From Qipengyuania marisflavi (GTDB lineage Bacteria > Pseudomonadota > Alphaproteobacteria > Sphingomonadales > Sphingomonadaceae), in the NCBI RefSeq assembly GCF_005884405.1, contig NZ_VCAO01000002.1, positions 124,001-188,000 of the forward strand: DNA of 64,000 nt, written 5' to 3'. The position numbers were made by a program, and so were the translations under genes. A model generated the notes under the pieces. That model saw only the letters and a list, made by a program, of their open reading frames with translations. It had not been told where the DNA came from and made no database searches. Positions 25,286 through 43,758 of this stretch are shown here, in pieces (position 1 is the stretch's first letter; each line of letters starts with the position of its first letter).

Positions 25286-26217
25286 CTCAGCCCCACGTTC
25301 CAGTCCTGCTTGACGAAGTCGTCGCCGCGCTCGACCCGCAGGCTGGCGATGTCATTATCGACGCCACTTTTGGTGCGGGCGGATATACCCGCGCGCTGCT
25401 GGATCGCGGCGCCACAGTTCATGCCTTTGATAGAGACCCCGATGCCCTGGCCTCGGGTCGCGACTGGCGCGAGACGGGGGAAAACCCGCCGCGCCTTATC
25501 CTTCACCCGCGCCGCTTTTCCGAAATGCTTGATGTCATGACAGCATTCGGTGTGGCGCGGGTCGACGGGGTGGTGATGGATATCGGCGTTTCCTCAATGC
25601 AGCTTGATCAGGCCGAGCGCGGCTTTGCCTTTTCGCTCGACGGTCCGCTGGACATGCGGATGAGCCAGGACGGCGAAAGCGCAGCGGATTTCGTCAACAG
25701 CGCGGAAGAAAGCGCGATTGCCGATGTGCTGTACAATTTCGGCGAGGAACGTCAGTCGCGCCGCGTCGCCCGCGCGATTGTCGCGGCGCGCCCGCTTTCA
25801 ACCACCGGCGAACTGGCGCGCGTGATCCGCAAGGCGCTGGGCTACCGGACCGGCGCGCCCAAGGATCCTGCGACGCGCAGTTTCCAGGCCATTCGTATTC
25901 ATGTGAACGGCGAACTCGACGAACTGTCCCAGGGGCTGTCGGGTGCCGAGCACTTGCTGAAGGAGGGTGGCCGCCTTGCGGTGGTCAGCTTCCACAGCCT
26001 CGAGGACCGGATCGTGAAGCGTTACCTGCGCGACGCATCCTCAACCCCGAGCGCGTCACGCCATCTCCCACTGGTGGCAATGCGCGATCCGGTCTTCACC
26101 CATGTTAGCAAGGCGATCAAGCCGGGCGAGGCCGAACTGGCACGCAACCCGCGTGCCCGCTCATCCGTGCTGCGCCACGCCGTGCGCACTGCCACACCCG
26201 CACGAGACGCGGCATGA
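25282..26217 (+). CDS. rsmH: 16S rRNA (cytosine(1402)-N(4))-methyltransferase RsmH
   Basis: The enzyme methylates C1402 of 16S rRNA in the decoding centre using SAM. At 311 residues it shows [10 protein letters not shown] at the N terminus, the SAM motif [14 protein letters not shown] and the downstream [15 protein letters not shown] signature. GTG start overlapping mraZ, and a four-base ATGA overlap with ftsL, place it in the operon. Length and motifs are normal. Confidence 0.97.
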
Positions 26218-26735
26218 TTGCGGCTGGGTCACGGCTTCGCCAGATCGGCTGGGCGCTGGTGCTGGGCCTGTGCTTTGCCGCGCTGCTGGCGCTGACGTTC
26301 AAAGTGAATGCGGTCAAAAGCGAAGTGCGGCTGACCGAACGCCATATCATTGCTGCTGAACAGTCACGCATCATGCTGGAAACCGAATTCCAGACCCGCT
26401 CCAACCAGAAGCAGTTGGCTGCATGGAATGCGGTCGAGTTTGGCTATGGCGCGCCGCGCGCCGATCAATATCTCGAAAACGAACGCCAGCTGGCATCGCT
26501 GGGCACGCCGCGCGGTAGCGGCGCGCCGCAGCAGGTTCGCGTGGCGCTGAACCGCCCGGTGGAAGACGCTGAAGACAGCAGCATGATTGCTGATTGGCTG
26601 GCGGGCGAAGACGATGCGCCTGACAGCGAAGCGCCGCCGCCTGCGCCGCGCCGCGAGCTGGTCGCCAATTCCATCGCGCAGCGGCTGGCCCGTCCCGCCG
26701 GGTCGATGGCCGGTTCTGCCGAGGTGCAGCAATGA
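26214..26735 (+). CDS. ftsL: Cell division protein FtsL
   Basis: FtsL is a bitopic divisome protein that forms a complex with FtsB and FtsQ and activates FtsWI. The 173-residue product has one membrane segment (about 12-30) followed by a coiled-coil-prone region (about 33-80), the FtsL layout. A disordered Pro/Ala/Asp-rich tail from about residue 95 makes it longer than the ~120-residue enterobacterial protein. Sequence conservation in this family is low, so the identification rests on topology and its position between rsmH and ftsI. ATGA overlaps at both ends. Confidence 0.85.
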
Positions 26736-28501
26736 ACGCCATGACCGGTTTCGGTCCGATGTTCGCACCGGCCGGACGCGCCGCGCCCGGTGCGGTCAGT
26801 CAGGCAGCGGTGGTTGGCCGAGTCAAACTGGTGACTCTGCGCCAGACCGCCATCGCGCTGGCCCGTTGGCGGGTGCTGTGGCTGGCGCTGGCCTTTGCCT
26901 TTATTGCGTTGATGGCGCTGCTGCGGATCGGCTATCTGGGCATGTCCGACCACGGCACCCGCGCCACGTCGCTGGCCGAGGCGCTGCTGCCTGCGCGCGG
27001 TGAAATCACTGATCGCCACGGTGTGCCGCTCGCCCGTGCCTTCCCCGCATACGCGCTGTGGTTCAATCCCGAAGCTTTGGGCGAAGGCGGTTCGCCGCTG
27101 GTTGGCGCGGCGGCTTCTGTTGCTGCCAAACTCAAATCGATTTTCCCCGATCTGGATGAGAAGCGCACTGCCGCGCAGCTGGTCTCTGGCAAGCAGGGCT
27201 ATATCCGCCGCCGCGTCCTGCCCGAAGAAGCCAACAGGGTGCAGGAGATTGGCGAACTGGCGCTGGAAATGCCGATGGAGGCTGACCGCCACTATCCCCA
27301 AGGATCGATGGCAGCGCATGTGCTTGGCTATGTCGCCGCCGACGGCAAAGGCCGGGTGGGCATGGAGCAGGTGCTCAATGAGCGGCTGAGCGACCCCGCG
27401 CAGCGCGGCACGCCGGTAGCATTGTCCATCGACATGCGCGTACAGGGCGCGCTGGAAGACGAACTGGCGCGCGGCATGAAGCTGACTGACGCGCAGGGCG
27501 GCGCGGGCATCGTGCTGGATGTCGACACAGGCGAAGTGCTGGCGCTGGCCAGCCTGCCCGAATTTGATCCCAACAAGATCGACGCCAAGGGCCAGAGCCT
27601 GATGTTCAATCGCGTGACCAATCAGGTTTACGAGTTGGGCTCCACCTTCAAGCCGATCACTGTCGCCGCCGCCATCGACGCGGGCGTGGTCCGCGATTTT
27701 GGCAAGCGCTGGGATGCCGCCCCCATCAAGGTGGGACGCTTCACAATCAAAGACAGCCACCCGTTGGGCAATACGTTGAATGTTGCCGAAACCCTGATCC
27801 ACTCATCGAACACGGTCACGGCCCGGATCGCCGATTCCCTCGGTCCGGCAAAAATGCGTCAGACTTTGATCGATCTGGGCATGAATGAACGGCCCTATAT
27901 CGAACTGCCGGCCAAGGGCTTCCCGATCTGGCCGGGCGACAATTGGCCGCGTCTGCGCAATATGACGGTCAGCTATGGCCACGGTATTGCTGTCACGCCG
28001 CTGCATCTGGCCTCGGCCTATGGCGCGATGGTGAATGGCGGCATCTGGCGTCCGGCAACGCTGCACAAATTGGCACCGGGCGACGTGCCCAAGGGGCGCC
28101 GCGTGTTCAAGGCATCGACCTCCAGCCGGATGCGCCAGCTGCTGCGGATGATCGCGGTCTATGGTACGGGCCGCAATGCCAATGCACCGGGCTACCGCGT
28201 GGGCGGCAAGACCGGCTCGGCAGAAAAGCCCTCCGCTACCGGCTATCGCAAGAAGGCGCTGGTTTCGACCTTTGCCGCAGCGTTCCCGATGGACCGCCCG
28301 CGCTATGTCGTGATTGCCATGCTGGACGAGCCGCGCGGCACAGTGGCCTCCAGCTTCCAGCGCACGGCGGCGTGGAATGCCGCGCCCATCGTCGGGCGGC
28401 TGGTTCCGCGCATCGGCCCGCTACTGGGTGTGCAGCCCGATGACACGCGCGATGTCGATATTTCGGACCTCAAGCCGCTGGTTCCGGGGAAGCACGAATG
28501 A
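26732..28501 (+). CDS. ftsI: Peptidoglycan transpeptidase FtsI (PBP3)
   Basis: This is the septal class B penicillin-binding protein that crosslinks peptidoglycan. The 589-residue product has an N-terminal membrane anchor (about 48-70), the pedestal domain starting RGEITDRHGVPLA, and the transpeptidase motifs: Ser304/Lys307 in GSTFKPI, SSN at 358-360, and KTG from Lys493. There is an N-terminal cytoplasmic extension of about 45 residues. It overlaps ftsL and murE by four bases each. Confidence 0.96.
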   Translation: MNAMTGFGPMFAPAGRAAPGAVSQAAVVGRVKLVTLRQTAIALARWRVLWLALAFAFIALMALLRIGYLGMSDHGTRATSLAEALLPARGEITDRHGVPLARAFPAYALWFNPEALGEGGSPLVGAAASVAAKLKSIFPDLDEKRTAAQLVSGKQGYIRRRVLPEEANRVQEIGELALEMPMEADRHYPQGSMAAHVLGYVAADGKGRVGMEQVLNERLSDPAQRGTPVALSIDMRVQGALEDELARGMKLTDAQGGAGIVLDVDTGEVLALASLPEFDPNKIDAKGQSLMFNRVTNQVYELGSTFKPITVAAAIDAGVVRDFGKRWDAAPIKVGRFTIKDSHPLGNTLNVAETLIHSSNTVTARIADSLGPAKMRQTLIDLGMNERPYIELPAKGFPIWPGDNWPRLRNMTVSYGHGIAVTPLHLASAYGAMVNGGIWRPATLHKLAPGDVPKGRRVFKASTSSRMRQLLRMIAVYGTGRNANAPGYRVGGKTGSAEKPSATGYRKKALVSTFAAAFPMDRPRYVVIAMLDEPRGTVASSFQRTAAWNAAPIVGRLVPRIGPLLGVQPDDTRDVDISDLKPLVPGKHE

Positions 28502-29976
28502 AGCTGGGCAAACTGTGCGCGGCTGCTGGATTGGCCTGTCCGTCTGGCGAGGACCAGGCCGTCACCGGCTTTGCCATCGATCACCGCAAGGTTGCGCCGG
28601 GCACCGTGTTCGGCGCGTTTCAGGGCACGCAGGTCAATGGCGAGGATTACATCGCCCCCGCCATCGCCGCCGGAGCTATCGCGGTGGTCGCCCGCGCCGA
28701 GGCTGTTGTCGAGGGCGCAGCACATATTGCTGTGGCACAGCCGCGCCAGACATTCGCGCAGCTGGCCGCCGGGTTCTTCACACCGGTGCCCGAACATATC
28801 GTCGCGGTGACTGGCACCAATGGCAAAACCTCCACCGCCGAAATGACCCGCCAGATCTGGCGCATGGCAGGCGAACGTGCGGCCAGCATCGGCACGCTGG
28901 GCGTCACTACGCCGGACGAGAGTGTTTCCACCGGGCTGACCACGCCCGACATCGTCACTTTCCTGTCGAACATGAGCGGGCTGGCACGCGAAGGCGTGAC
29001 CCATGTTGCCTATGAAGCGTCGAGCCACGGCCTGTCGCAATATCGCAATGAAGGCGTTCCGGTGCAGGCCGCTGCTTTCACCAATTTCAGCCGCGACCAC
29101 CTCGATTATCATACCGATATGGAGGATTATTTCACCGCCAAGATGCGGCTGTTTGGTGAAGTGGTCTCTGATGGTGCGACCGCTGTCGTTTGGTTGGGCG
29201 AAACCGATAGCGACTGGAACCGCCGCGCCGCCGATCATGCGCGCCAACGCGGCCTGACCTTGCTGACCGTTGGCGAGCAGGGCGAGGATATCCGCCTGAC
29301 CAGCCGCAAACCCACGCAGCTCGGGCAGACGCTGACCGTCGAACACGCCGGACAGCAGCGCCAGATAACACTGCCGCTGATCGGCGCCTATCAGGTCGCC
29401 AATGCGCTGACCGCTGCTGGGCTGGCGCTGGCCACGGGCACCGATGCCAGTCTGGTGTGGGACGCAGTCGCGCGGCTCCAGCCCGTGCGCGGACGGCTGG
29501 AACGGGCGGTTATCGCGCCAAGCGGTGCGCCGGTCTATATCGATTACGCCCACACGCCCGACGCACTGGAGGCCGCCATTGCGGCCCTGCGTCCGCATGT
29601 TTCCGGACGGCTGATCACAGTCTTCGGAGCCGGCGGCGACCGCGATCATGGCAAGCGTGCGCCAATGGGCGCAGCGGCTGCCGGGGCGAGCGATCTGGTC
29701 ATCGTCACCGATGACAATCCGCGCGGCGAAGATCCTGAGGAAATCCGGCGCCAGGTGCTTGAAGGCGCAGCAGGAGCAAGCGAAGTGGGCGACCGCCGCG
29801 CAGCCATCCGCACCGCTATCGCCGAGGCTGGGCGCGATGACATCGTGCTGGTCGCGGGCAAGGGACATGAAGTGGGTCAGATCATCGGATCGGGAGAAAA
29901 CATGCAAGTGCTGCCCTTCGACGACGTCGAGGTCGCGCGCGAATGCGCTGCTGCCATTGCCAGAGGCGCGGCATGA
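28498..29976 (+). CDS. murE: UDP-MurNAc-L-Ala-D-Glu:meso-diaminopimelate ligase
   Basis: This cytoplasmic ligase adds the third amino acid of the peptidoglycan stem. The 492-residue product has the ATP motif TGTNGKTST and the C-terminal DNPRGEDP motif, which in this family marks meso-diaminopimelate rather than lysine as substrate. The conserved GRLERAV, YAHTPDALEAAI and GAGGDRDHGKRAPMG segments are all present. It is joined to ftsI and murF by ATGA overlaps. Confidence 0.97.
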   Translation: MKLGKLCAAAGLACPSGEDQAVTGFAIDHRKVAPGTVFGAFQGTQVNGEDYIAPAIAAGAIAVVARAEAVVEGAAHIAVAQPRQTFAQLAAGFFTPVPEHIVAVTGTNGKTSTAEMTRQIWRMAGERAASIGTLGVTTPDESVSTGLTTPDIVTFLSNMSGLAREGVTHVAYEASSHGLSQYRNEGVPVQAAAFTNFSRDHLDYHTDMEDYFTAKMRLFGEVVSDGATAVVWLGETDSDWNRRAADHARQRGLTLLTVGEQGEDIRLTSRKPTQLGQTLTVEHAGQQRQITLPLIGAYQVANALTAAGLALATGTDASLVWDAVARLQPVRGRLERAVIAPSGAPVYIDYAHTPDALEAAIAALRPHVSGRLITVFGAGGDRDHGKRAPMGAAAAGASDLVIVTDDNPRGEDPEEIRRQVLEGAAGASEVGDRRAAIRTAIAEAGRDDIVLVAGKGHEVGQIIGSGENMQVLPFDDVEVARECAAAIARGAA

Positions 29977-31439
29977 GCGCCGCAATCCTGCGCCATCCCG
30001 CCTATCTGGAATGGCCCGCCGATCCGCGTGACCGGCTGCCGCTGACGCTGTGGGATGCCGCCAGCATTGCCGAGGCAGTGGGCGGCACCGCCAGCTGTGA
30101 TTTCCAGGTGGCGGGCGTCGAAATGGACAGCCGCGACGTCGTCAATGGCGATCTGTTCGTGGCGCTGAGGGGCGAGGCGATGGACGGCCACCGCTTTGTG
30201 GACAAAGCTTTTGCCAATGGCGCCTCTGCTGCACTGGTCGATCGCCCTGTCGATAATCCGCATATTCTGGTCAAGGACACCGGTATTGCGCTGGAAGCAT
30301 TGGCGCGGGCCGCGCGTTTGCGGACCAAGGCGACCATAATAGGGGTGACCGGATCGGTTGGAAAAACCGGCGTGAAAGAAGCGATTTTCGCGGGGCTGGA
30401 ACGCGCCAGCCGCGGCGCGGCGCATCGTTCCACCCGCAGCTATAACAACCATGTCGGCGTTCCGCTCAGCCTGGCGCGGATGCCCGCGCGCAGCCGTTTC
30501 GGGATTTTCGAAATGGGTATGAACCATGCGGGCGAAATCGCGCGGCTGACCACGCAGGTTCGCCCGCATGTCGCGGTGATTACCACCATCGCGCCTGCAC
30601 ATATCGAAAACCTTGGCAGCGAAGAGGCGATTGCCGATGCCAAGGCTGAAATCGTTGCGGGGGTCGAACCGGGCGGGGTCGCAATTATTCCCGCCGACAG
30701 CCCGCATTTTGAACGACTGAGTAAGGCAGCACAGTCCGCCGGGGTACGTGTGGTCAGCTTTGGCCGGGCGCGCGGCGCGGATATGCGGCTGCTGGATTCT
30801 ATCCCCAGCGCCAATGGCGGATCTCTGGTGACCTGCGAGTTTGATGGCGGGCGGCTGTGTTTCACTGTGGCCGAGCCGGGCGATCACTGGGTGATAAATG
30901 CGCTTGCTGTCATGGCAGCTGTGCGTGCGGCGGGCGGCGATATGGCCGCTGCCGGACTGGCGCTTGCCGAAATGGGCGGCCTGAAAGGTCGCGGCGCGCG
31001 TCACGGAATTGATGCGCCGGGCGGCAAGGCGCTGCTGATCGATGAAAGCTATAACGCCAATCCGGCCAGTATGCGCGCCACACTGGCGCAGCTGGGCCAG
31101 ACCCCGTCGGCCCGCCGCATCGCGGTGTTGGGCGCAATGAAGGAATTGGGTGATTTCGCTCCGAAATTTCACGCCGCACTTGCCGAGCCTTTACTGGCCG
31201 CCGATGTCGATCTGGTGGTGATGGTGGGCGAAGAGATGCGCGCGCTGGCACGCGAATTGGGGAAACAGACTGCTCAGTCGCTTGGCAACACGATACGCTA
31301 CGCCCATTGCAATACAGCCGACGAGGCAATCGAACTGCTGAATGACTTCGGGATCGTCGCTGGCGATGCCGTGCTGGTGAAAGGCTCCAATTCAGTCGGG
31401 CTCGGCAGGCTCGTGGATCACTTCACCCGCGCCCGCTGA
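29973..31439 (+). CDS. murF: UDP-MurNAc-tripeptide:D-Ala-D-Ala ligase
   Basis: MurF adds D-Ala-D-Ala to complete the UDP-MurNAc-pentapeptide. From ATG 29973 (overlapping the murE stop) it has 488 residues with the ATP loop [23 protein letters not shown] and the C-terminal [14 protein letters not shown] typical of MurF. The frame opens ten codons earlier, but the overlap and the family's length favour this start. An 17-nt gap separates it from mraY, one of the few non-overlapping joins in the cluster. Confidence 0.96.
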
Positions 31440-31456
31440 GGGCGCCGAGAGGCTCA

Positions 31457-32527
31457 ATGCTTTACCTGCTTGCCGAATGGTTGGATTTCGAAGGCCTCTC
31501 GAACCTTGTGCGGTATCAGACCGCGCGGGCCGGGGCCACGCTGCTTACCGCGCTGTTGATCGGGCTGGTCATCGGGCCGCGCTTTATCGATATGCTGCGG
31601 GTGCGACAGGGCAAGGGTCAGCCAATCCGCGAAGATGGCCCGCAAACCCATCTGGCCAAGGTTGGCACGCCGACAATGGGCGGGCTGATGATCCTGGTCA
31701 GCCTGTTCCTGTCGCTGATGCTGTGGATGGATTTGAAGAACCCCTTCGTCTGGGCCTGTCTGGCGGTCACCGGGGGCTTTGGCCTGATCGGCTTCCTTGA
31801 CGATTATGACAAGGTGACGAAGGCCAGCCACAAGGGCGTATCGGCGCGCGTCCGTCTGCTGATGGAATTTGTCGTCGCAGGCATCGCCAGTTATATAATT
31901 GTCAGCCAGATCAACACTTTCCTCTACGTCCCCTTCGTCAATGACTTCGGAATCGAGATGGGGTGGTTCTATTATGTCTTTGCCGCCGTGGTGATGGTGG
32001 GCGCGGGCAATGCGGTCAATCTGACCGACGGGCTGGACGGGTTGGCGACCATGCCGGTGATCATTGCGGCAGGCACCTTTGCCGTGATCGCCTATCTGGT
32101 CGGACGCGTCGATTACTCCGAATATCTGGGCATCCCCTATGTTGAGGGTGCGGGTGAGTTGGCGATATTCTGCGCCGCTATCATGGGCGCGGGACTGGCC
32201 TTCCTATGGTTCAACGCGCCGCCTGCTGCGGTCTTCATGGGTGACACCGGCAGCCTGGCCCTGGGCGGCGCGCTGGGCGCGATTGCCGTGGCGAGCCATC
32301 ACGAGGTCGTGCTTGCCATCGTTGGCGGGCTGTTCGTGTTCGAGGCTCTGAGCGTCATCATTCAGGTGTTCTGGTTCAAGCGAACCGGTCGGCGCGTGTT
32401 CCGCATGGCGCCGATCCACCACCATTTCGAACAATTGGGCTGGTCTGAAAGCAAGGTCGTGATCCGGTTCTGGATCGTCGCCATCGTGCTCGCGCTGATG
32501 GGGCTCGCCACGCTGAAGCTGAGATGA
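31457..32527 (+). CDS. mraY: Phospho-N-acetylmuramoyl-pentapeptide-transferase MraY
   Basis: This integral membrane enzyme transfers phospho-MurNAc-pentapeptide onto undecaprenyl phosphate, forming lipid I. The 356 residues have about ten membrane segments and the catalytic motifs [25 protein letters not shown] and [22 protein letters not shown] near residue 70 is also conserved. It ends in an ATGA overlap with murD. Confidence 0.97.
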
Positions 32528-33837
32528 TCACCTCGCCCGCCTTTTCGGGAAAACGCTATGCGGTGCTGGGCCTCGCGCGGTCGGGGCGGGCGGCGGTCGA
32601 GGCGCTGCTGGCAAGCGGAGCCGAGGTGCTGGCGTGGGACAATCGCGAGGAAGCGCGGCAGGCTTTCGCGGGCCGCGTGGAACTCGCCGATCCGGTTAAA
32701 ACCGATCTGACCGGGTTTGCTGGCGTGGTGGTCAGCCCCGGCGTCCCGCTCAACACCCACCCGATCAAGCCCCATGCCTACAGCTTCGGCGTGCCGGTGA
32801 TCGGCGATATCGAACTGTTCGCGAAGGCGAGGGCGGACCTGCCGCCGCACAAGGTCGTCGGCATCACCGGCACCAACGGCAAATCGACCACCACCGCGCT
32901 GGTCCACCATATCCTCAAGACCGCAGGCGTACCGACCACCATGGGCGGCAATATCGGCCTGCCGATCCTCGAGCAGGAGCCATTGCCCGAGGGCGGGGTC
33001 TATGTGCTGGAGCTGTCCAGTTACCAGATCGACCTGACCTATTCGCTCGATTGCGACGTGGCGGTGCTGCTGAACATCACGCCGGATCATCTGGACCGGT
33101 ATGACGGGGATTTCGAGAAGTACGCTGCAGCTAAGGCTCGGCTATTCGAGATGCAGAGTCCCGGAAGCAAGGCACTTCTCTATGACGACCCTCGAGACGC
33201 GAGCGATGTTATCCTCTGGATGATGGATGACTTCGAGGACGGGGAGTGGCCGATTCTAGCGGACGTAATCGGTATGGTTCGAATTAGTTTGGATGGCCTG
33301 ACGCTAGCTTCAAGCCTCCGAGGACCACATAATCACGCCAATGCCAGTGCCGCATTTTACACCGGCACGTATCTCGGGATTTCGGAACCGCAGATGGAGG
33401 CTGCCCTCCGCACCTATCCCGGCCTCCCGCACCGCATGGAGCGGGTCGCGGAAATCTCCGGCGTTGCCTACATCAACGATAGCAAGGGCACCAACACCGC
33501 TGCCTCCGCCCCCGCGCTGGCGGCGTTCGACAATGTCCACTGGATCGTCGGCGGTCTGGCCAAGGAGCAGGGGCTCGGCGAATGTGAAGCGCAACTCGGC
33601 CATGTCAAAGCCGCCTATACCATCGGCGCGGCGGGCGAGGATTTTGCGCGGCTCCTGGAAAACAGGGTGTCAATCAAGCGCTCGATAACGCTCGAACAGG
33701 CGGTGTTCGACGCTTCGAACGCTGCCGAACGCGGCGACACAATCCTGCTCTCCCCTGCCTGCGCCAGTTTCGACCAATATCGCGATTTCGAAGCGCGCGG
33801 TGACCATTTCCGCAGCCTTGTGGAGGCGCTCGCATGA
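32524..33837 (+). CDS. murD: UDP-MurNAc-L-Ala:D-glutamate ligase
   Basis: MurD adds D-glutamate to UDP-MurNAc-L-alanine. The 437-residue product has the ATP loop [10 protein letters not shown] near residue 119, [16 protein letters not shown], the carbamylated-lysine region [16 protein letters not shown] and the C-terminal [12 protein letters not shown]. All key motifs survive, so it is probably functional. Codons 200-279 (33121-33360) use a markedly different set (CGA, CTA, GCT, GTA, AGT) and are AT-richer than the rest of the gene. This suggests a recombined segment; see findings. ATGA overlaps link it to mraY and ftsW. Confidence 0.95.
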
Positions 33838-35099
33838 GCACCGTGCAGCCCTATGTCCCCGGCAAGCGCCAGCCGATGCATATGCCGCGCCAGCGGCTGT
33901 CGCGGCTGTCCGAACTGAAAATCTGGTGGCGCGAGATTGACCGGGTGCTGCTGTTCCTGATCCTGCTCCTGATGACCTTCGGCACCGTCGCAGTTGCGGC
34001 GGCTTCCCCTGCCAGCGCGGGTCGTCTGTCGACATCGGCAACCACGCTCGACCCGCTGTATTTTTTCTACCGCCATATTGCCTGGCAATTTTTCGGTCTG
34101 ATAGCGATGGCGGCGGCGTCGATGATGACACGGGAAAATGCCAGGCGATTTGGCGTGCTGGTCGCTGCGGCAATGCTGGGGCTGATGTTTCTGGTTCCCA
34201 TCATCGGCGCGGAGGTCAACGGCGCCCGGCGCTGGATCAATTTGGGGATGCGTTTCCAGCCCTCCGAATTTCTCAAGCCCGCCTTTGCCATTACGCTGGC
34301 ATGGATCATTTCGTGGCGGATGCGCGATGCGCATATGCCGGTTGTGGCCATCACTTCGGCGTTGACGGCGGTGGTGGCTATTCTGTTGATGATTCAGCCC
34401 AATCTGGGCGAGACCATTTTGATTGCGGGCGTGTGGTTCGTGATGATCCTGCTGGCCGGGGTGCCGATGAAGCGGATCGGCGCGCTGGCGGGCGGGGCGA
34501 TGGTGGGGCTGACCGCTGCCTATTTCCTGTACGACAATGCGCGCCACCGTATCGATGCGTTTCTGGGCGGCGGCACGGCCTATGACCAGGTCGATCTGGC
34601 CAGCCGCACCTTGCTGGCGGGCGGCTGGACCGGAGCGGGATACGGGCTGGGTATCCGCAAGATGAGCCTGCCCGAAGCGCATACCGATTACATCTTCAGC
34701 GTGATTGGCGAGGAATTCGGCCTGATCGCCTGCGGTTTTGTGGTGCTGCTGTATCTGGCGATCATCACCCGCGTGCTGATGCGGCTGGTGGAGGAGGATG
34801 ATCTGTTCGCGCTGCTCGCCGGGGCCGGGCTGACCGCGCTGCTGGGCGGGCAGGCATTTATCAATATGCTGGTCAATCTGCAGCTGTTCCCGTCCAAGGG
34901 CATGACGCTGCCGCTGGTCAGCTATGGCGGGTCATCCACCATCGCGGTTTGCCTGACCGTCGGGCTGCTGGTCGCAGTGACCCGGCGCAACCCGTTTTTG
35001 AAAACCAGCACTTCGGGACTTGGCGACAGGCTGGGTTTAGGGCAACCGCGGGCGATGAACGATAAACCGGGCAGCATCATACGCGAGGTTACGCCGTGA
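33834..35099 (+). CDS. ftsW: Peptidoglycan glycosyltransferase FtsW (SEDS family)
   Basis: This is the septal SEDS glycosyltransferase that polymerises lipid II with FtsI. The 421-residue product has ten predicted membrane segments and family signatures: NGARRWINLGMRFQPSEFLKPAF, QPNLGETILIAGVWF, AHTDYIFSVIGEEFG and the C-terminal GMTLPLVSYGGSS. A ~38-residue cytoplasmic N terminus precedes the first segment. It overlaps murD and murG by four bases each. Confidence 0.96.
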   Translation: MSTVQPYVPGKRQPMHMPRQRLSRLSELKIWWREIDRVLLFLILLLMTFGTVAVAAASPASAGRLSTSATTLDPLYFFYRHIAWQFFGLIAMAAASMMTRENARRFGVLVAAAMLGLMFLVPIIGAEVNGARRWINLGMRFQPSEFLKPAFAITLAWIISWRMRDAHMPVVAITSALTAVVAILLMIQPNLGETILIAGVWFVMILLAGVPMKRIGALAGGAMVGLTAAYFLYDNARHRIDAFLGGGTAYDQVDLASRTLLAGGWTGAGYGLGIRKMSLPEAHTDYIFSVIGEEFGLIACGFVVLLYLAIITRVLMRLVEEDDLFALLAGAGLTALLGGQAFINMLVNLQLFPSKGMTLPLVSYGGSSTIAVCLTVGLLVAVTRRNPFLKTSTSGLGDRLGLGQPRAMNDKPGSIIREVTP

Positions 35100-36292
35100 C
35101 CACCGCGAACCGCCATTATGTATTGGCCGCAGGCGGCACCGGAGGCCATCTGCTGCCGGCCTTTGCGCTGGCGACCGAGCTGGAGCGGCGCGGGCATCAT
35201 GTCGCGCTGATCACCGATGAACGCGGGGCGGAGATTCCGGGGAAGCCCGATTTCCTGCCCGCACATGTCCTGCCTGCGGGCCGGTTTCGCAAGAACCCGC
35301 TGCATTGGTTCAAGGGGCTGTCCGCCGTGCTGGAAGGGCGCCGCATGGCGATGCGGCTGTTCGAAAGCTTCCAGCCCAGCGCGGTGGTCGGCTTTGGCGG
35401 CTACCCCTCGCTGCCTGCACTGCTGGGCGCGACGTCGGCGGATATTCCCTGTGTCATCCATGAACAGAACGCGGTGCTGGGCCGGGTCAACCGGCTGTTG
35501 TCGGGCCGCGTGCAGGCCATCGCCACCGCCTATCCCGATATCGAGCGGCTGAAACCGCGCCATCAGGAAAAGGTCCATCTGGTGGGCAATCCGGTGCGTG
35601 CTGGCGTGTTGACGCTGCGGGACGAACCCTTCCCGGCATTTGGCGAAGACGGCGTGCTGCGCGTGCTGGTGACCGGCGGCAGTCAGGGCGCGCGGATATT
35701 GTCCGAAGTGGTGCCTGACGGCCTTGCCATGCTGCCCCCCGCCTTGCGCCAGCGGTTGCAGGTGACGCAGCAGTGCCGTCCCGAAGATCTGGACGCGGTA
35801 CGCGCGCGCTATCGCAATCACCAGATCCCCGCCGAGCTGGCGACCTATTTCGAGGATATGGCCGCGCGGCTGGCTGACGCGCATCTTTTCATTGGCCGTG
35901 CGGGTGCATCAACCATTGCCGAGCTGACTGCGGTTGGCCGCCCGGCGATCCTGATCCCGCTGCCCATCGCCACCGACGACCATCAGGCTGCCAATACGCG
36001 CGAAATGGTCAAGGCAGGCGGCGCGCGGATGATCCGGCAGGAACGCTTTACCGGCAAGGAATTGGCCAAGCAGATCATGGCGCTTGCCGATGATCCCCAA
36101 GGTCTCGCAAATGCGGCCCATGCGGCGTGGAATTGCGGGCGGCCCAAGGCGGTGCAGGACCTTGCCGATCTGGTCGAAAGTTTTGGCGGCGCAGATCTGA
36201 TGGATGTCATCCGCGTCGGCGGCAATAATGAACGCGGCGCGTCGCAGGGCGCTCCTGCCGGACAAGGCGCAGCGCGGGAGGCGAGCAAGTGA
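35096..36292 (+). CDS. murG: UDP-GlcNAc:lipid I GlcNAc transferase MurG
   Basis: This peripheral membrane GT28 enzyme converts lipid I to lipid II. The 398-residue product has [14 protein letters not shown] at residues about 13-26, [33 protein letters not shown] and the donor-site stretch [27 protein letters not shown] start overlaps the ftsW stop. The C terminus has a ~30-residue Ala/Gly-rich tail. It overlaps murC. Confidence 0.96.
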
Positions 36293-37701
36293 AGGGTGTC
36301 GGCACCGATATCGGAACCATCCATTTCGTCGGCATTGGCGGGATCGGCATGTCGGGCATTGCCGAAGTCATGCACAATCTGGGCTACGCCGTGCAGGGTT
36401 CGGACATTGCCGAGGGGCCGAGCGTGGAACGGCTGCGCGGGCGCGGCATCCCGGTGATGATCGGCCATGCTGCAGGGAATGTGGACGGGGTGGCGGTGGT
36501 CGTCACTTCAACGGCGGTGCGCCGCACCAATCCCGAAGTCGCCTGCGCACTGGAAAACCGTATTCCTGTGGTTCGACGCGCGGAAATGCTGGCCGAGCTG
36601 ATGCATCTGAAATCGACCGTCGCGGTGGCCGGTACGCATGGCAAGACCACCACCACCAGCATGATCGCCGCGCTGCTCGATGCCGGGAATATCGACCCGA
36701 CCGTGATCAATGGCGGGATCATCGAACAATATGGCTCCAACGCGCGGCTGGGCGACAGTGAGTGGATGGTGGTCGAAGCCGATGAAAGCGACGGCAGCTT
36801 CCTGCGGCTCGACGGGACCATTGCGGTGGTCACCAATATCGATCCCGAACATCTCGACCATTACGGCGATTTTGACGGGGTAAAGCGCGCCTTTGTCGAG
36901 TTCATCCACAATGTCCCCTTCTACGGGGCTGCAATCCTGTGCGTCGATCATCCTGAAGTGCAGGCGGTGATCGGCCAGGTCCGCGATCGCCGCGTGGTCA
37001 CCTATGGCTTCTCGCTCCAGGCGGATATCTGCGGTGTGAATGTGCGGCCCAGGGATGGCGGCAATGCTTTCGACGTGGTGGTACGCCAGCGGGGCGAGGA
37101 AGACCGCAGGATCGAAGGCGTGCATCTGCCCATGCCCGGCCGCCACAATGTCCAGAACGCGCTCGCCGCGATTGCCGTGGCGATCGAGATGGGCTGTTCG
37201 GACGAGGTTATCTGCAACGGCTTTGCCAGTTTCAGCGGCGTGCGGCGGCGCTTTACCAGAGTGGGCGAAGTTGCCGGTGCAGCGATCATCGATGATTACG
37301 CGCACCACCCGGTGGAAATCCGCGCCGTGCTGTCCGCCGCGCGCGAAAGCGCCAGAAACCGCGTGATCGCTGTGGTGCAGCCGCATCGCTACACCCGGCT
37401 GCGCGATCTGATGGATGATTTCCAGACCTGCTTCAACGAAGCGGATCAGGTCTATGTCACCCCGGTCTATACCGCAGGCGAGGACCCGATTGAGGGTGCC
37501 GACGCCGCGTCGCTGGTGGCGGGGCTGAAATCGCGCGGCCACCGTTCCGCCGCCACGATTGCCGATCAGGCCGATCTGGCAACAACCTTGGCCGGGGAAC
37601 TGGCCGAGGGCGATGTTGTCGTCTGTCTTGGCGCGGGCGACATCACCAAATGGGCCGCCGCTCTTCCCGATGCGATTACAGCGCAGTTGGACGCGGCATG
37701 A
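36289..37701 (+). CDS. murC: UDP-MurNAc:L-alanine ligase
   Basis: MurC adds the first amino acid of the stem peptide. The 470 residues show the Rossmann start [17 protein letters not shown], the ATP loop [38 protein letters not shown] and the C-terminal [15 protein letters not shown] start. It overlaps murG and murB by four bases each. Confidence 0.97.
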
Positions 37702-38663
37702 AGCAGCTGGGCGAAATTCCCCGCCGCGATAATGGCGAAGCGCCGTTTGCCGAAACCGCGGGTAAATCGCGCACTCCGGTTTCGACCAAGGGGCTGCGCG
37801 GGACGCTGACGCCGCAGGCGCCGCTGGCGAAACTGGTGTGGTTCAAGGCGGGCGGGAAGGCTGACTGGCTGTTCGAACCGGCCGATATGGACGATCTCCA
37901 GCTGTTCCTCGAACGGCTGAATAACGATCTGCCCGTGATGGCTCTGGGGCTGGGTTCCAATTTGATCGTGCGCGATGGCGGGGTGCCCGGCGTGGTGATC
38001 AAGCTGGGCAAGCCGTTTGCCGAAATCGAAATCCGCGATGACAATGTGCTGGCCTGCGGGGCGGGCGCACACGGTATTCTGGTGGCCAGTGCCGCGCGCG
38101 ATGCGGGCATTGCGGGAATGGAATTCATGCGCGGTATCCCCGGCACGGTCGGCGGCTTCGTGCGGATGAACGGCGGTGCCTATGGCCGCGAGGTGGCCGA
38201 TGTGCTGACCGATTGCGATGTCATCATGCCCAATGGCCGGGGCCACTGCCTGACCGCGCGCGAGCTGGGCTATTCCTATCGCCATTCCGAGCTGCCCGCC
38301 AACGCCGTGGTCATCGCCGCGCGCTTCAAGGGCGTGCCCGGCGACCCCGAGGCAATCGGCGCGAAAATGGACCGCATCGCCGCTGCGCGCGAGGAGGCGC
38401 AGCCGCTGCGCACCAAGACCGGCGGATCGACCTTCAAGAACCTGCCCGACCGCAAGGCGTGGCAATTGGTCGATGATGCCGGGTGCCGCGGGCTGACACT
38501 GGGCGGCGCTCAGGTGAGCGAGAAGCACACCAACTTCCTGATCAACACCGGCGATGCCACCAGCGCCGATATCGAAGGGCTGGGCGAAGAAGTCCGCCGC
38601 CGTGTCTATCAGAAATCGGGCGTCGCGCTCGATTGGGAAATCCAGAGGGTCGGCAGGCCATGA
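37698..38663 (+). CDS. murB: UDP-N-acetylenolpyruvoylglucosamine reductase
   Basis: This FAD enzyme reduces UDP-GlcNAc-enolpyruvate to UDP-MurNAc using NADPH. From ATG 37698 (overlapping the murC stop) the product has 321 residues with [35 protein letters not shown] and the YSYRHSELP serine region. The frame opens 16 codons earlier within murC. It has the type IIa/short C-terminal layout common in alphaproteobacteria. Confidence 0.96.
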
Positions 38664-39622
38664 ACGCACTCCCCAAACTCCATGTCGCGGTCCTGATGGG
38701 CGGCTGGGCCAATGAACGGCCCGTTTCGCTGATGTCTGGCGAGGGTGTTGCCGAGGCGCTGGAGCAGCGCGGGCACCGGGTCACGCGGATCGATATGGAC
38801 CGGCAGGTGGCTGCACGCATTGCCGAGGCTGCGCCCGATGTCGTGTTCAACGCGCTGCACGGGGTGCCGGGGGAAGACGGGACGGTGCAGGGCATGCTCG
38901 ACCTGATGGGCGTGCCCTATACGCATTCCGGCCTCGCCACCTCGGTAATCGCGATCGACAAGCAGCTGACCAAGCAGGCGCTGGTGCCGCATGGTATCCC
39001 GATGCCCGGCGGGCGGATCGTGCATAGCGAGGAACTGTATCAGCACGACCCGCTGCCGCGTCCCTATGTGCTTAAACCCGTCAATGAAGGCAGCTCGGTC
39101 GGCGTGGCGATTGTCACTGACGAGGGCAATTACGGCAATCCCATTGCACGCGATACGGCGGGGCCGTGGCAGGAATTTTCCGAGCTGCTGGCCGAACCCT
39201 TCATCAAGGGCCGCGAGATGACCACCGCCGTGGTGGATTTTGCCGATGGGCCGCGCGCGCTGGCGGTGACCGAGCTGAAGCCCAAGAGCGGCTTTTACGA
39301 TTTCGACGCCAAATATACCGATGGCATGACCGACCATATCTGCCCCGCAGAAATCCCCGGGCATATCGAGCAATTGTGCCTCGAAATCGCGCTGAAGGCG
39401 CATAAGGTGCTGGGCTGCCGGGGCTGTAGTCGCACCGATTTCCGCTGGGATGATGAGCAGGGCGAAGACGGCTTGTTCGTGCTGGAAACCAACACCCAGC
39501 CGGGCATGACCCCGCTCAGCCTGGTGCCCGAACAGGGGCGCTTTGCGGGCATGGAATATGCCGATACCGTCGAAGCGATCATCGCGGCGGCCATGCGGCA
39601 TTTCGAGGCTAAGGATGGCTAA
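38660..39622 (+). CDS. ddl: D-alanine-D-alanine ligase
   Basis: This ATP-grasp ligase makes D-Ala-D-Ala for MurF. The start ATG 38660 overlaps the murB stop and gives 320 residues, the DdlB length. Motifs: VAVLMGGWANERPVSLMSG at the N terminus, NALHGVPGEDGTVQG, the ATP-binding KPVNEGSSVGV, and the metal site LETNTQPGMTPLSLVPEQ. The frame extends far upstream within murB, but that part is unrelated. It overlaps ftsQ by eight bases. Confidence 0.96.
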   Translation: MNALPKLHVAVLMGGWANERPVSLMSGEGVAEALEQRGHRVTRIDMDRQVAARIAEAAPDVVFNALHGVPGEDGTVQGMLDLMGVPYTHSGLATSVIAIDKQLTKQALVPHGIPMPGGRIVHSEELYQHDPLPRPYVLKPVNEGSSVGVAIVTDEGNYGNPIARDTAGPWQEFSELLAEPFIKGREMTTAVVDFADGPRALAVTELKPKSGFYDFDAKYTDGMTDHICPAEIPGHIEQLCLEIALKAHKVLGCRGCSRTDFRWDDEQGEDGLFVLETNTQPGMTPLSLVPEQGRFAGMEYADTVEAIIAAAMRHFEAKDG

Positions 39623-40523
39623 GGTCAGCCGCAAACCCCAAGGCGTTCGGCGATCTGCCGCAGCGCGCAGCCGCAGTCAGAAGGCGCGCGCGGCGCGTCG
39701 CCACACGCATTCTTTGCTGGATCAGGCAATGGCCGCGCTGCCGTTCACCGAAGAGCAGTGGAACAAGTTCTTCCTGTTGCTGATCGTCGGCATCGCTTTG
39801 GCGCTGGCGTGGACCGTGGCAAGTTTCGCCGGGGTGCCCGAAATGGCGCGGGTGCAGCTGGCGCAATCCGCCTCGCGTGCGGGTTTCGAGGTCAGCCGGG
39901 TGCGCGTGTCCGGGGTCGAGCGCATGAACGAGCAGTTGGTGTATGAGCGCGTCCTGTCGGAACAGGATCGCCCGATGCCGCTGGTCGATCTGAAGTATGT
40001 GCGCGAGAGGCTGCTCGAATTGCCATGGGTCGCCGATGCGCGCGTATCGCGCCAGCTGCCCGACACGCTGAAAATCGATATTGTCGAGCGTGTCCCGCAC
40101 GCCGTGCTGCGCAAGCCGGGGCGGCTGATGCTGGTCGATCGTCAGGGTAATGAACTGGAACCGATCTCCGCCAAGGCTGCCAAGGGCAAGCTGCTGATCG
40201 AAGGGCCGGGCGCGCAGAAACAGGTCGATGAGCTGGGCAAATTGCTCGATGCCGCGCCCGCGCTGAAACCGCGCATCGCCTCTGCCGAATGGGTGGGCAA
40301 TCGCCGCTGGAATCTGATCTTCGAAACCGGCCAGATGCTCGCGCTGCCCGAAGGTGATGCAGGATCTGCGGCGCTGGTGAAATTTGCCAAGCTTGACGGG
40401 ATGCACCGGCTGATCGGCGGCAAGCCTGTGGCCATCGATATGCGCGTGCCCGATCGCGCCTATCTGCGCTGCAAGGACGGTCCGTGCCCCAAGCAGCTCG
40501 CCGCCAATGGACAGGCCGAATAA
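39615..40523 (+). CDS. ftsQ: Cell division protein FtsQ
   Basis: FtsQ is a bitopic divisome protein bridging FtsA-FtsK and FtsBL. From ATG 39615 it has 302 residues: a very basic cytoplasmic N terminus (about 1-40), one membrane segment (about 55-75), a POTRA domain starting FEVSRVRVSGVERM, and the beta domain with LPWVADARVSRQLPDTLKIDIVERVPHA. The unusual Lys/Arg-rich N terminus is typical of alphaproteobacterial FtsQ. It overlaps ddl by 8 nt and ftsA by 1 nt. Confidence 0.94.
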   Translation: MAKVSRKPQGVRRSAAARSRSQKARAARRHTHSLLDQAMAALPFTEEQWNKFFLLLIVGIALALAWTVASFAGVPEMARVQLAQSASRAGFEVSRVRVSGVERMNEQLVYERVLSEQDRPMPLVDLKYVRERLLELPWVADARVSRQLPDTLKIDIVERVPHAVLRKPGRLMLVDRQGNELEPISAKAAKGKLLIEGPGAQKQVDELGKLLDAAPALKPRIASAEWVGNRRWNLIFETGQMLALPEGDAGSAALVKFAKLDGMHRLIGGKPVAIDMRVPDRAYLRCKDGPCPKQLAANGQAE

Positions 40524-41809
40524 TGGCCGCGCCGCTTCCCCGCATCAGCCGTGTGTTCGGGGCGGTCAATATCGGCTCGTTCCGCGTGTCGGCGATGATC
40601 ATGGGGCTGGCCGATGGCGGCGAGATGGTGGTGCTGGGATCAAGCCACCGCGCCAGCGAGGGGATCAAGCGCGGCTATGTCACCGATATGCGCGCCGCGA
40701 CCCACGCGATCCGCACGGCGGTGGAAAAGGCGGAGGCCAATGCCAACACCAGCATCTCAAGCGTGTGGATCGGCTGCGCGGGGGCAGGGCTGTCCAGCAA
40801 GATTTCCTCGGTAGAGATCGCCATTGGCGGCCGCCGCATCGAGGAAGATGATATCGAGCACCTGCTCTATGCCGCGCGCGATCATATCCAGCCCGACGGC
40901 AAGATGGTGCTGCACGCGCAGCCGGCGCATTACACGCTGGACGGGGCGCATGGCGTCGCAAATCCCAAGGGCCTCCATGCCGAGGCGCTGGGGGTCGATA
41001 TCCATGTAACGCTGGCCGAGGGTCCACCCATCCGCAATCTGATCGAGGCAGTGCAGAACGCGCATCTTGATGTCGAAGGCGTGGTCGCCAGCCCGCTGGC
41101 CGCCGCTTATGCGTGCCTGTCTGCCGAAGAGCGCGAGCTGGGTGTGGCGCTGATCGAAATCGGTGCGCAGGTCACCAATGTCTCAGTCCATGCGGGCGGG
41201 ATGCTGCTGGGCCTGAAATCGGTAGCGGTCGGATCGAACGATATCACCGATGCTATCGCGTCGAATCTGGGTATCCGCCGCAGCCAGGCCGAGCGGCTCA
41301 AATGCGTCGCCGGTTCGGCCATTGCCACGCCCACCGATCACCGCGAAATGATCGCCGTCAACGCGCCGGGTGACGAGGCCAGCGGCCCGCTGGCCCGCGG
41401 CGCGGACGAGCAGAACCGCATTGCCCGTGCCGAGCTGGTATCGGTCGTCACCGACCGGCTGGGCGTGCTGACCGCTGAAATTGCCAAGGGTCTCAAGGCG
41501 CTGGGCTTTTCTGGCGCGGCAGGCGGGCAAGTCGTATTGACCGGCGGCGGCGCAGAATTGCACGGCATTGCCGAATTCATGCAGGGCGCGCTGGGGCGGC
41601 CAGTACGCATCGGCAAACCGCCTGTGTTGACCGGTCTGCCAGAAGCCCATGCAACGCCCGGATTTGCTACGCTGGCGGGGCTCTGCCTCTATGCTGCGGA
41701 AGATCCGGTGGACATCCGCTCGGTCGGTCCACGCCATCAGCCAACCCGTCGCTATTCGGGTGTCGGATTGGTCAATCGCGTGGTTCAGGCGGTGAAAGAG
41801 TATTTTTAG
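40523..41809 (+). CDS. ftsA: Cell division protein FtsA
   Basis: FtsA is an actin-fold protein that tethers FtsZ to the membrane. From ATG 40523 (TAATG overlap with ftsQ) it has 428 residues with the 1A, 1C and SHS2 domains: GAVNIGSFRVSAMI, GALIEIGAQVTNVSVHAGG-like phosphate loop, QVVLTGGGAELHGI, and a C-terminal amphipathic helix VNRVVQAVKEYF for membrane binding. A 134-nt gap with its own regulatory sites separates it from ftsZ. Confidence 0.96.
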   Translation: MAAPLPRISRVFGAVNIGSFRVSAMIMGLADGGEMVVLGSSHRASEGIKRGYVTDMRAATHAIRTAVEKAEANANTSISSVWIGCAGAGLSSKISSVEIAIGGRRIEEDDIEHLLYAARDHIQPDGKMVLHAQPAHYTLDGAHGVANPKGLHAEALGVDIHVTLAEGPPIRNLIEAVQNAHLDVEGVVASPLAAAYACLSAEERELGVALIEIGAQVTNVSVHAGGMLLGLKSVAVGSNDITDAIASNLGIRRSQAERLKCVAGSAIATPTDHREMIAVNAPGDEASGPLARGADEQNRIARAELVSVVTDRLGVLTAEIAKGLKALGFSGAAGGQVVLTGGGAELHGIAEFMQGALGRPVRIGKPPVLTGLPEAHATPGFATLAGLCLYAAEDPVDIRSVGPRHQPTRRYSGVGLVNRVVQAVKEYF

Positions 41810-41844
41810 CCGGTGCCGCAATCGTCAACGCCGCGTTTAGGCAT

Positions 41845-41853
41845 TGTGGATAA
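41845..41853 (-). promoter_or_regulatory. DnaA box (TTATCCACA) upstream of ftsZ
   Basis: The minus strand reads TTATCCACA, a perfect match to the high-affinity DnaA box. It lies 91 nt before the ftsZ start in the only sizeable gap of the division cluster. DnaA is known to activate ftsZ directly in Caulobacter; here this is inferred from the motif. Confidence 0.6.
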
Positions 41854-41876
41854 GGCAACATTCCCTTTGCACCATC

Positions 41877-41912
41877 GATTCGCTTTGTGCCAAATGTGTT
41901 ACACCGTAATAC
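41877..41912 (+). promoter_or_regulatory. ftsZ promoter region with GANTC site
   Basis: A possible -35 (TTGTGC, 41885-41890) and -10 (TAATAC, 41907-41912) are 16 bp apart, giving a start near 41919, 25 nt before the ftsZ ATG. A GATTC (GANTC) CcrM methylation site at 41877-41881 sits immediately before the -35. In Caulobacter, GANTC sites in the ftsZ promoter affect expression with methylation state. Confidence 0.45.
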
Positions 41913-41943
41913 TGGCGATTATTTCTACCCCGGGGGACACCCA

Positions 41944-43758
41944 ATGAGCATCAATATCGGACCCGCATCGACTGACGAACTTCGTCCCAAGATCATGGTC
42001 ATCGGCGTCGGCGGCGCGGGCGGCAACGCCATTGCCAACATGATGCAGGCCGAAATCGAAGGCGTCGACTTCATCGTCGCGAACACTGACGCGCAGGCGC
42101 TGGCGATTGCCACCTCTGAAAAGCGGATCCAGCTTGGCCCCGACATTACCGGCGGCCTGGGTGCAGGCGCACGTCCCGAAGTGGGCAAGGCTGCGGCTGA
42201 AGAAACCGTCGACGAGATCGACGAGGCGCTGGAAGGCGTGAATATGTGCTTCATCGCTGCCGGCATGGGCGGCGGAACGGGCACTGGCGCGGCACCTGTC
42301 ATCGCGGAAGCTGCCCGCAAGAAGGGCGTTCTGACCGTAGGTGTCGTGACCAAGCCGTTCCTGTTCGAAGGCACCCGCCGGATGCGCGCGGCTGAGGCCG
42401 GAATCGACGAGCTGCAAAAGCACGTCGATACGCTGATTGTCATTCCCAACCAGAATTTGTTCCTGGTCGCCAAGGCGGAAACCACCTTCAAGGAAGCCTT
42501 TATCCTTGCGGACGAAGTGCTCCAGCAGGGTGTGCGCTCAATCACCGATCTGATGGTGATGCCGGGCCTGATCAATCTCGACTTTGCCGATGTACGTTCC
42601 GTGATGAGCGAAATGGGCAAGGCGATGATGGGCACGGGCGAGGGCGAGGGTGACAACCGTGCGCTCGACGCTGCCGAACGCGCGATTGCCAATCCGCTGC
42701 TCGACGGGGTCAGCATGGCGGGCGCCAAGGGCGTCATCATCTCGATTATCGGCGGCGAAGACATGAAGCTGCTCGAAGTCGATGAGGCGGCGAACCACAT
42801 TCGCGAACTGGTCGATGAAGACGCCAACATTATCTGGGGTTCGGCATTCAATCCCGATCTCGACGGCAAAATCCGCGTTTCGGTGGTTGCGACCGGTATT
42901 GATGAAAGCGGGCGGTCGACAGAATCGGCCCCGCGTTCATTCTCCATGTCCGAAGCGCGTGCGCCCAAACGTCCGATCCTCGACCTGCCCAGCGAAAGCA
43001 TGGCCGAGCCGGAGCCATTCGAATTGAGCGAGGGTCTGTCGGCTGAGCCCGAGCCGGAGCCGGTGGAAAAGCCCGCCTATGAGGCGGCTCCTGAGCCAGC
43101 TTACGACCTGACGGAATCCTACAGCGGTGCCGACGATTCTGCGACTTCGGACGATGACGAAGAGCCGGAAGCCGAAGAGGAAGAGCCGGTCTATTCGGCT
43201 GGCGGCTTGTCGCCCGCTTCGGGTGGTTCGGATGACGAAGAAGACGAGGACTATGACGACGTTGACGGTATCGTCGACCCGCTCGCTGGATTGAGGGATT
43301 CGCACACCGAGCGCTTTGAAGGCAGCGAAGATATGCCCGAGCCTGCTGCCGACGCTGGCTTCGGCGGCGCTGCTGAAGAGCCCGGCTGGAGCGCAGAAGG
43401 CACAGACGACAGCACCCCACTCGACCTGTCCGACCCGGCCAGCGAGGGCGGCGACCAGGACGAATTCCAGCTTGGGAGTGACCATATGGCCGAAGGCGAA
43501 AGCCCGCTGGTCGCCAAGCCCGGTCGCAAGCGTCCGCTGGTGCCGGGCGGCGACGCCGGAGGCTTTGGCGGCGGCGGCGGTGCAGGCGGGGGCGGTGATG
43601 ATGACGGTGCCGGCAGTACGCTGTTTGAACGCATGGCCAAGCTGTCTCGCGGGTCCTCTCCCACAGCTTCGGAAGAGGATGAAGAGGACGACGAGGACGA
43701 GGGCAGCGGCGGCGCGCTCAATATCCCGCGCTTCCTCGGACGCCAGAACAATCAATAA
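41944..43758 (+). CDS. ftsZ: Cell division protein FtsZ, with a long acidic linker
   Basis: FtsZ is the tubulin-like GTPase that forms the Z ring. From ATG 41944 (after GGGGGA) it has 604 residues. The conserved GTPase core covers about 1-325, with the tubulin signature GGGTGTG at 109-115 and [14 protein letters not shown]. The linker (about 340-590) is very long and rich in Glu, Asp, Ser and Gly with poly-Gly runs. The C-terminal peptide [11 protein letters not shown], which binds FtsA, is kept. E. coli FtsZ is 383 residues, so the extra length is nearly all linker, as in other sphingomonads. Confidence 0.97.

Follow-up and report, generated by a model that had tools for sequence, protein, structure and literature searches.

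A conserved DnaA box beside a GANTC site upstream of ftsZ, with a matching box at the ccrM promoter, suggests joint control by DnaA and CcrM/GcrA in one sphingomonad clade

In the window (the whole 64-kb stretch of DNA analysed here), ftsA and ftsZ are separated by an intergenic region that holds a perfect DnaA box and, downstream of it, a GATTC site (Table 1). The initial annotation had reported both elements before ftsZ, and both were located exactly where it had put them. On the ftsZ strand the box reads TGTGGATAA, and no repeats were found in the ftsA-ftsZ gap. The description of this region as the only real gap in the division cluster after mraZ is likewise borne out by the ORF list, in which the 15-ORF chain from 24800 to 41809 contains a sole other gap of just 17 bp (31440–31456), with the proviso that the assignment of mraZ itself is weak (NCBIfam 50.2 bits against a cut-off of 162). 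The ORFs located 5' of ftsA look like a typical cluster of division and cell-wall genes; NCBIfam models were run on 10 of these ORFs, several scoring below the cut-offs.

Table 1. Features of the ftsZ upstream region and of the ccrM-type locus in the window's genome
Feature	Coordinates	Strand	Remarks
ftsA	40484..41809	+	TIGR01174, 270.7 bits, over cut-off; PF14450; ORF as listed; stop at 41809
ftsA-ftsZ intergenic region, putative ftsZ promoter	41810..41943		134 bp
DnaA box TTATCCACA	41845-41853	minus	perfect nine-base consensus match; -99 from the ftsZ ATG
Putative -35, TTGCAC	41867..41872	+	in conserved stretch (consensus CTTTGCAC); 3/6 letters of TTGACA
GATTC, CcrM-type GANTC site	41877-41881		context CGATTCG
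TTTGTGnCA block after GANTC	41884..41892	+	clade 35/67, outside 2/79
Putative -10, CAAATG	41891..41896	+	2/6 letters of TATAAT; hexamer position with the highest mean score in the clade
ftsZ	41944..43758	+	TIGR00065, 406.5 bits, over cut-off; ATG at 41944
ccrM promoter with perfect DnaA box over putative -10 and start	L002:1473-1509 (G000:C11:242595-242631)
CcrM-type methyltransferase	G000:C11:242643-243785		PF01555 (N6_N4_Mtase) and PF18755 (RAMA), over cut-off

For a 134-bp gap of this kind, about 0.0003 perfect boxes are expected from base composition and 0.00015 from the genome's own density. The window as a whole contains one perfect box among 10 sites with at most one mismatch, against 4.7 such sites in shuffled sequence, so that near-matches alone mean little. 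Across the genome (2,669,685 bases, 18 contigs) there are three perfect boxes, as compared with seven for the reversed control pattern, and these three precede ftsZ, a ccrM-type methyltransferase gene and mnmA. When TTATCCACA, TTGTCCACA and TTTTCCACA are pooled, the same genome shows 25 sites versus 21 for the reversed control, and 20 of the 22 TTGTCCACA or TTTTCCACA sites coincide with an open frame of 150 codons or more, on one strand or the other; variant boxes alone thus carry no genome-wide signal.

FtsZ was found in 148 of the 149 genomes sampled from the family and the upstream DNA was read in 146, leaving aside one genome with no match (G124) and two with partial matches only (G007 and G135). 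As the clade we took the first 67 genomes by FtsZ E-value (at least 86% identity to the window FtsZ), a cut by similarity rank that was chosen after the data had been seen. From -250 to 0 on both strands, the best box of the 146 genomes has no mismatch in 37 and one mismatch in 32, while the reversed control has no mismatch in none and one in 5. Restricting the scan to -145 to -80 in ftsZ orientation, the perfect box is present in 36/67 clade genomes and a one-mismatch box in 22/67, against 0/79 and 5/79 outside the clade; over the same stretch the reversed motif came within one mismatch in 0/67 clade genomes. The initial annotation had regarded absence of the motifs from close relatives as one finding that would speak against it. 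They are instead present, and in 43 of the 61 box-bearing clade genomes a GANTC starts 31–34 nt after the box start (exactly 32 nt in 36), and the other 18 have no GANTC at the usual spacing. Six clade genomes lack an ftsZ box by the criterion used.

All 22 single mismatches in the clade occur at position 7 (14 genomes) or position 9 (8 genomes) of TGTGGATAA and nowhere else, leaving TCCACA intact in every one of them. The DnaA consensus of Caulobacter is given as [TC][TCG][AG]TCCACA (PMC2877005; this and the other articles cited are drawn on in excerpt). Selection is apparently keeping the bases that DnaA would need. The column table behind the conserved positions has 61 rows, admitted either for beginning with TGTGG and having no more than two mismatches or for having no more than one mismatch at any position; because of the choice by TGTGG start its first letters are partly fixed, and the mismatch count is unaffected. 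Conservation is moreover sharply local. In 28 of the 30 closest genomes (those with the box; 378 pairs), mean pairwise identity reaches 0.946 in the box, compared with 0.34, 0.35 and 0.29 for flanking stretches, 0.495 for the stretch holding the GANTC and 0.517 for the fourfold codon sites of ftsZ. The ftsZ box is, as far as these patterns tell, not a product of chance. A CtrA-like TTAACC occurs in the 14 nt before the box in 11/61 genomes and is absent from the window's own site.

GANTC is scarce in the window, with 60 sites against 241.7 in shuffles, i.e. four times rarer. Upstream of ftsZ, a GANTC starts between -82 and -54 from the ATG in 45/67 clade genomes (shuffles 7.3) and in 45/79 others (shuffles 7.7), making it the wider-spread part of the arrangement and the DnaA box the clade-specific part. 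The most frequent contexts in the clade are CGATTCG (17) and TGATTCG (6), and both fit the extended GcrA motif YGAKTCK (PMC7987155), a preference that, in the excerpted text of the same article, was not found in Brevundimonas. The strict pattern of box plus GATTCG is met in just 26/149 genomes (27 sites, 14 of them at ftsZ) because perfect letters were demanded.

Past the box, the conserved columns are CTTTGCAC at offsets 20–27, GATTCG at 32–37 and TTTGTGnCA at 39–47, so that the GANTC lies between two conserved blocks, the candidate -35 and -10. In a hexamer scan of the clade, the best mean likeness to TATAAT is found at offset 46 (2.39 of 6). With a -10 at this offset, transcription would begin near 41903 and the box would lie around -50 to -58. 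Each hexamer is weak, and a consensus scan of the plus strand did not call this candidate pair either. The TTTGTGnCA block is probably part of the promoter core, and could alternatively be a separate operator; it takes an inverted-repeat form, TTGTGnCACAA, in 10 genomes. The -35/-10 pair that the initial annotation had called plausible did not hold up as the main promoter. Deduced from its transcription start near 41919, this pair would consist of TTGTGC (41885–41890) and TAATAC (41907–41912). We rejected it because a consensus promoter scan of the plus strand from 41500 to 42200, which found no promoter, missed the pair, and because its apparent -10 falls in a stretch without conservation (at most 0.13 bits at offsets 62–67).

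The genes for DnaA, a CcrM-type methyltransferase and GcrA are all present in the window's genome, and a CcrM-type methyltransferase is found in 149/149 family genomes, this one included. The methyltransferase matches the CcrM structure 6pbd (E 1.9e-148) and reaches 603 bits with the NCBIfam CcrM equivalog NF050803, below the cut-off of 830, for which reason we label it CcrM-type; by its name, the model may be Caulobacter-specific. For GcrA, PF07750 scores over its cut-off, in a family search that also matched Sulfolobus among the controls. The recognition domain of DnaA matches that of E. coli (1j1v, E 1.5e-21), with GRDHSTV against GRDHTTV in E. coli.

The distribution of the box was then set on an FtsZ tree of 109 rows, made up of 30 genomes and 79 loci with organism names (80 such loci were found, and L097 was dropped for its missing gene start). 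One group of 58 rows with 100/100 support collects 53 of the 55 box-bearing rows, and the box label changes 8 times on the tree against 36.8 in shuffles; some distant rows sit on long branches and their placement is unsure. The group comprises Erythrobacter, Croceicoccus, Novosphingobium, Altererythrobacter, Alteraurantiacibacter, Porphyrobacter, Pontixanthobacter, Citromicrobium and the window's genome, and the box is lacking in the Sphingomonas, Sphingopyxis and Sphingorhabdus rows and in 4/5 rows named Sphingobium. The two box-labelled rows outside the group carry TGTGGATGA (L064) and TGTGGATTG (L069). Five rows inside it were counted as having no box, among them L035 (Erythrobacter vulgaris), with GGTGGATAA at -100, and L052 and L057, with TGTGGAAAT at -167 and TGTGGACAA at -198, beyond the scanned stretch. 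The limit of the clade is not clean, since a one-mismatch box is in place in 5/79 outside genomes and a TGTGGA core occurs in 6/79. The DnaA box does not show the conservation across the Sphingomonadales to which the initial annotation had looked, and belongs mainly to one clade; the GANTC at -82 to -54 recurs outside it, across the family as sampled. In the same tree, the ftsZ of L080, titled Actinobacteria bacterium 21-64-8, groups with Novosphingobium and its kin and carries the TGTGGACAA box; the title or bin of this entry is likely wrong.

The perfect box at the ccrM-type gene of the window's genome starts 20 bp before the gene. The ccrM region was read in all 67 genomes of the clade and, of the 82 others, in 23. 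Its typical clade form, TTGACGcGGAGTCCgcttGGACTCACCCTGTGGATAA, has TTGACG followed by a 17-bp spacer that contains one or two GANTC sites, and after the spacer CACCC and TGTGGATAA. TGTGGA follows TTGAC in 56/67 clade genomes (52 perfect boxes) and in 0/23 of those sampled outside, at a start-to-start distance of 28 nt in 48/56, while 11/67 clade genomes have no ccrM box. With this spacing the box would cover the final base of the putative -10 together with the likely start, a position in which any protein bound to it would obstruct polymerase. The upstream DNA of ccrM is rich in GANTC, with a mean of 5.4 sites per 250 bp in the clade and 5.8 in the others (L114-L143, L401-L460), and TTAACCAT, which we take to be CtrA half-site-like, appears in 30/67 clade ccrM regions.

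The two boxes tend to go together. Of the 90 genomes read for both genes, 52 carry the two boxes, 13 the ftsZ box only, 4 the ccrM box only and 21 neither of them, where a TGTGGA core with up to two mismatches counts as an ftsZ box. Nine of the 11 clade genomes without a ccrM box have an imperfect or missing ftsZ box (Fisher p 0.018, a value that ignores kinship). The 30 closest genomes contain 148 perfect boxes, with one at ftsZ in 20 genomes, at ccrM in 27 and at mnmA in 3, and at each of these three genes the boxes keep the same orientation to their own gene. A class-wide pattern search of 240 genomes gave a match in 37, and inspection by eye recognised the ccrM arrangement in the window's genome (G000) and in G041, both in the clade. 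In another alphaproteobacterial family, a stretch at G343:C1:1585003-1585038 of the form TTGAC...CACGAGTCCTGTGGATAA resembles the ccrM arrangement, with a GAGTC adjoining the box.

Other boxes were read more selectively. The window's genome has a perfect box 88 bp 5' of mnmA; we rejected mnmA as a common target beyond the window's genus, the box being found in 3/30 genomes, all of that genus (L003:1501-1509; L144, L146, L149). The 98 perfect boxes of the 30 genomes that are not at ftsZ, ccrM or mnmA were represented by 20 loci with 21 boxes, where genes were named by eye, except MipZ for L213. A second MipZ paralogue, present in 10/30 genomes (L223-L232; PF09140 was assigned to the G002 copy) and absent from the window's genome, has a box upstream in all ten, 8 of them perfect and 2 reading TGTGGAAAA. 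Of the common MipZ gene, 20 copies were read, a set that excludes 9 more from genomes with two MipZ genes; 20/20 are without a perfect box, and two show a one-mismatch box in the opposite orientation. At dnaA, where a box could point to autoregulation, there is no perfect box at 30/30 loci with partial upstream cover, and two have a one-mismatch site.

Three further pairs of loci are worth recording. In L211 and L212 (genus g3), a GANTC begins 31 nt past the start of a box that precedes a ribulose-phosphate 3-epimerase-like gene (by eye), an arrangement resembling that at ftsZ. In L216 and L220 the gap that follows a pssA-like gene holds perfect boxes, and in L220 an rpsB-like gene comes next (by eye). 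Lastly, G047 and G062 have perfect boxes some 17.4–17.7 kb 5' of ftsZ (L207 and L222), the one in L207 preceding an mraZ-like gene (by eye).

The observed sequences, with their conservation, clade limits, usual spacing and pairing with ccrM, lead us to the reading, held at a probability of about 0.7, that DnaA and CcrM/GcrA control the ftsZ promoter and that, in this clade, ftsZ and ccrM each carry a DnaA box. Mechanistically, the ftsA-ftsZ gap would be the ftsZ promoter, its core being the GANTC inside the conserved promoter block, which would most likely be read by CcrM methylation together with GcrA, raising the activity of the promoter. In the clade (Erythrobacteraceae, Novosphingobium and Croceicoccus), the box 32 bp before the GANTC (start to start) would stand just upstream of the putative -35. 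From there, at about -50 to -58 from the likely ftsZ start, DnaA would act as an activator by helping polymerase, and the replication initiator would thereby help to set the supply of Z-ring protein. At ccrM, in turn, the box over the putative -10 and the start of the promoter suggests that DnaA blocks or gates transcription. What we infer here is DnaA binding, CcrM methylation, reading by GcrA, the hexamers of the promoter and the sign of each effect. A more far-reaching version, which we offer tentatively and consider rather doubtful, is a cell cycle rewired around the initiator. One DnaA signal would push ftsZ on and hold ccrM off, Z-ring supply and methylation would run in opposite phase, the second MipZ paralogue, where present, would join the regulon, and CtrA would perhaps be dispensable for timing.

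It is also conceivable, if unlikely, that DnaA binds the box and represses ftsZ, or that its sign switches with the ATP/ADP state as for nrdAB in E. coli. Against repression stands the location of the box 5' of the putative -35, a usual place for activators; the TTAACC seen before the box in 11/61 genomes could, for its part, bring competition by CtrA and thus favour repression. Both signs of DnaA action have been described (PMC8203912), and for Caulobacter it is DnaA-ADP that is proposed to activate ftsZ (PMC8203912). An improbable alternative is that the box serves to titrate or store DnaA and came to lie in the gap by accident, with only the GANTC mattering for ftsZ. Perfect boxes are rare enough in the genome for each to weigh, and the GANTC at this place is indeed the wider-spread element, but titration needs neither a constant orientation, nor a usual GANTC spacing, nor a matching box in the ccrM promoter.

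We hold just as little to the idea that a DNA-binding protein other than DnaA reads TGTGGATAA at ftsZ and ccrM. Such a protein would be in keeping with the lack of a perfect box at dnaA itself (the 30/30 loci above), and DnaA binding is itself deduced from the motif; on the other hand, the changes tolerated at positions 7 and 9 spare TCCACA, as in the Caulobacter DnaA consensus (PMC2877005), and the DnaA recognition domain looks normal. Chance motifs, or recent common descent without function, are very improbable as an explanation. The 4.7 sites expected within one mismatch in the window would fit such an origin, but the flanks are near random in the same genomes in which the box is 0.946 identical, and the reversed control in the same stretch gave 0/67.

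How replication is joined to division in the alphaproteobacteria is modelled chiefly on Caulobacter. Here, sequence alone points to selection that maintains DnaA boxes at both ftsZ and ccrM throughout much of a clade, and sister groups often have the GANTC without the box. This suggests that replication, division and methylation are tied together in this sphingomonad branch. If true, it would amount to a clade-specific gain of a regulatory link, by which the initiator may directly time division and methylation.

The closest known system is the ftsZ promoter of Caulobacter crescentus, which is activated by CcrM through GANTC and is also under DnaA and CtrA (PMC3708114, PMC8203912). Its GANTC lies between the -35 and the -10, where methylation raises transcription (PMC3708114), and DnaA is reported to activate the gene (PMC8203912). 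The present region shares with it the C before the GANTC, a GANTC position that would fit between the putative -35 and -10, a predicted DnaA site upstream and the gene itself, and the window's genome has, like Caulobacter, the CcrM-type, GcrA and DnaA genes. Unlike the Caulobacter promoter, this putative promoter has a perfect consensus box, which is found mainly in one clade, usually at 32 nt from the GANTC, and has its counterpart in a box at the ccrM promoter. The Caulobacter-type triad of DnaA site, GANTC and CtrA site is represented by box and GANTC, with TTAACC before the box in 11/61 genomes and not in the window. The analogy with Caulobacter drawn in the initial annotation stands for the list of parts and for the GANTC position, which fits PMC3708114, and does not so far extend to an orthologous arrangement. 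In the open-licence literature, as seen in excerpt, we found no cell-cycle work on the ftsZ promoter of this clade.

Other precedents bear on single elements. At the mipZ P2 promoter of Caulobacter, DnaA motifs are placed at -52 and -83 (PMC4287350), which resembles the present DnaA motif about 50 bp before the putative start of a division gene; in contrast to Caulobacter mipZ, it is the second MipZ paralogue here that carries the boxes (8/10 perfect, 2/10 TGTGGAAAA) and not the common gene (0/20 perfect). DnaA boxes near ftsZ are also known from E. coli, where they lie in ftsQA upstream of ftsZ and were found not to act on it (PMC8203912). Control of ccrM by DnaA was predicted by Brilli 2010 for cluster C (Magnetospirillum, Rhodospirillum), organisms whose ccrM is without CtrA sites (PMC2877005). 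Our DnaA box upstream of ccrM agrees with that prediction in kind and differs in lineage, the Sphingomonadales being cluster E in the same study, whose excerpted text finds no taxonomic conservation of DnaA sites except at ctrA (PMC2877005); ccrM has 0 occurrences in the main text of the DnaA review PMC8203912. Taken globally, the parts are those of the Caulobacter ftsZ promoter as that system is described in the excerpts cited, and the arrangement, the clade limits and the pairing with ccrM make the promoter region of this clade a variant of it.
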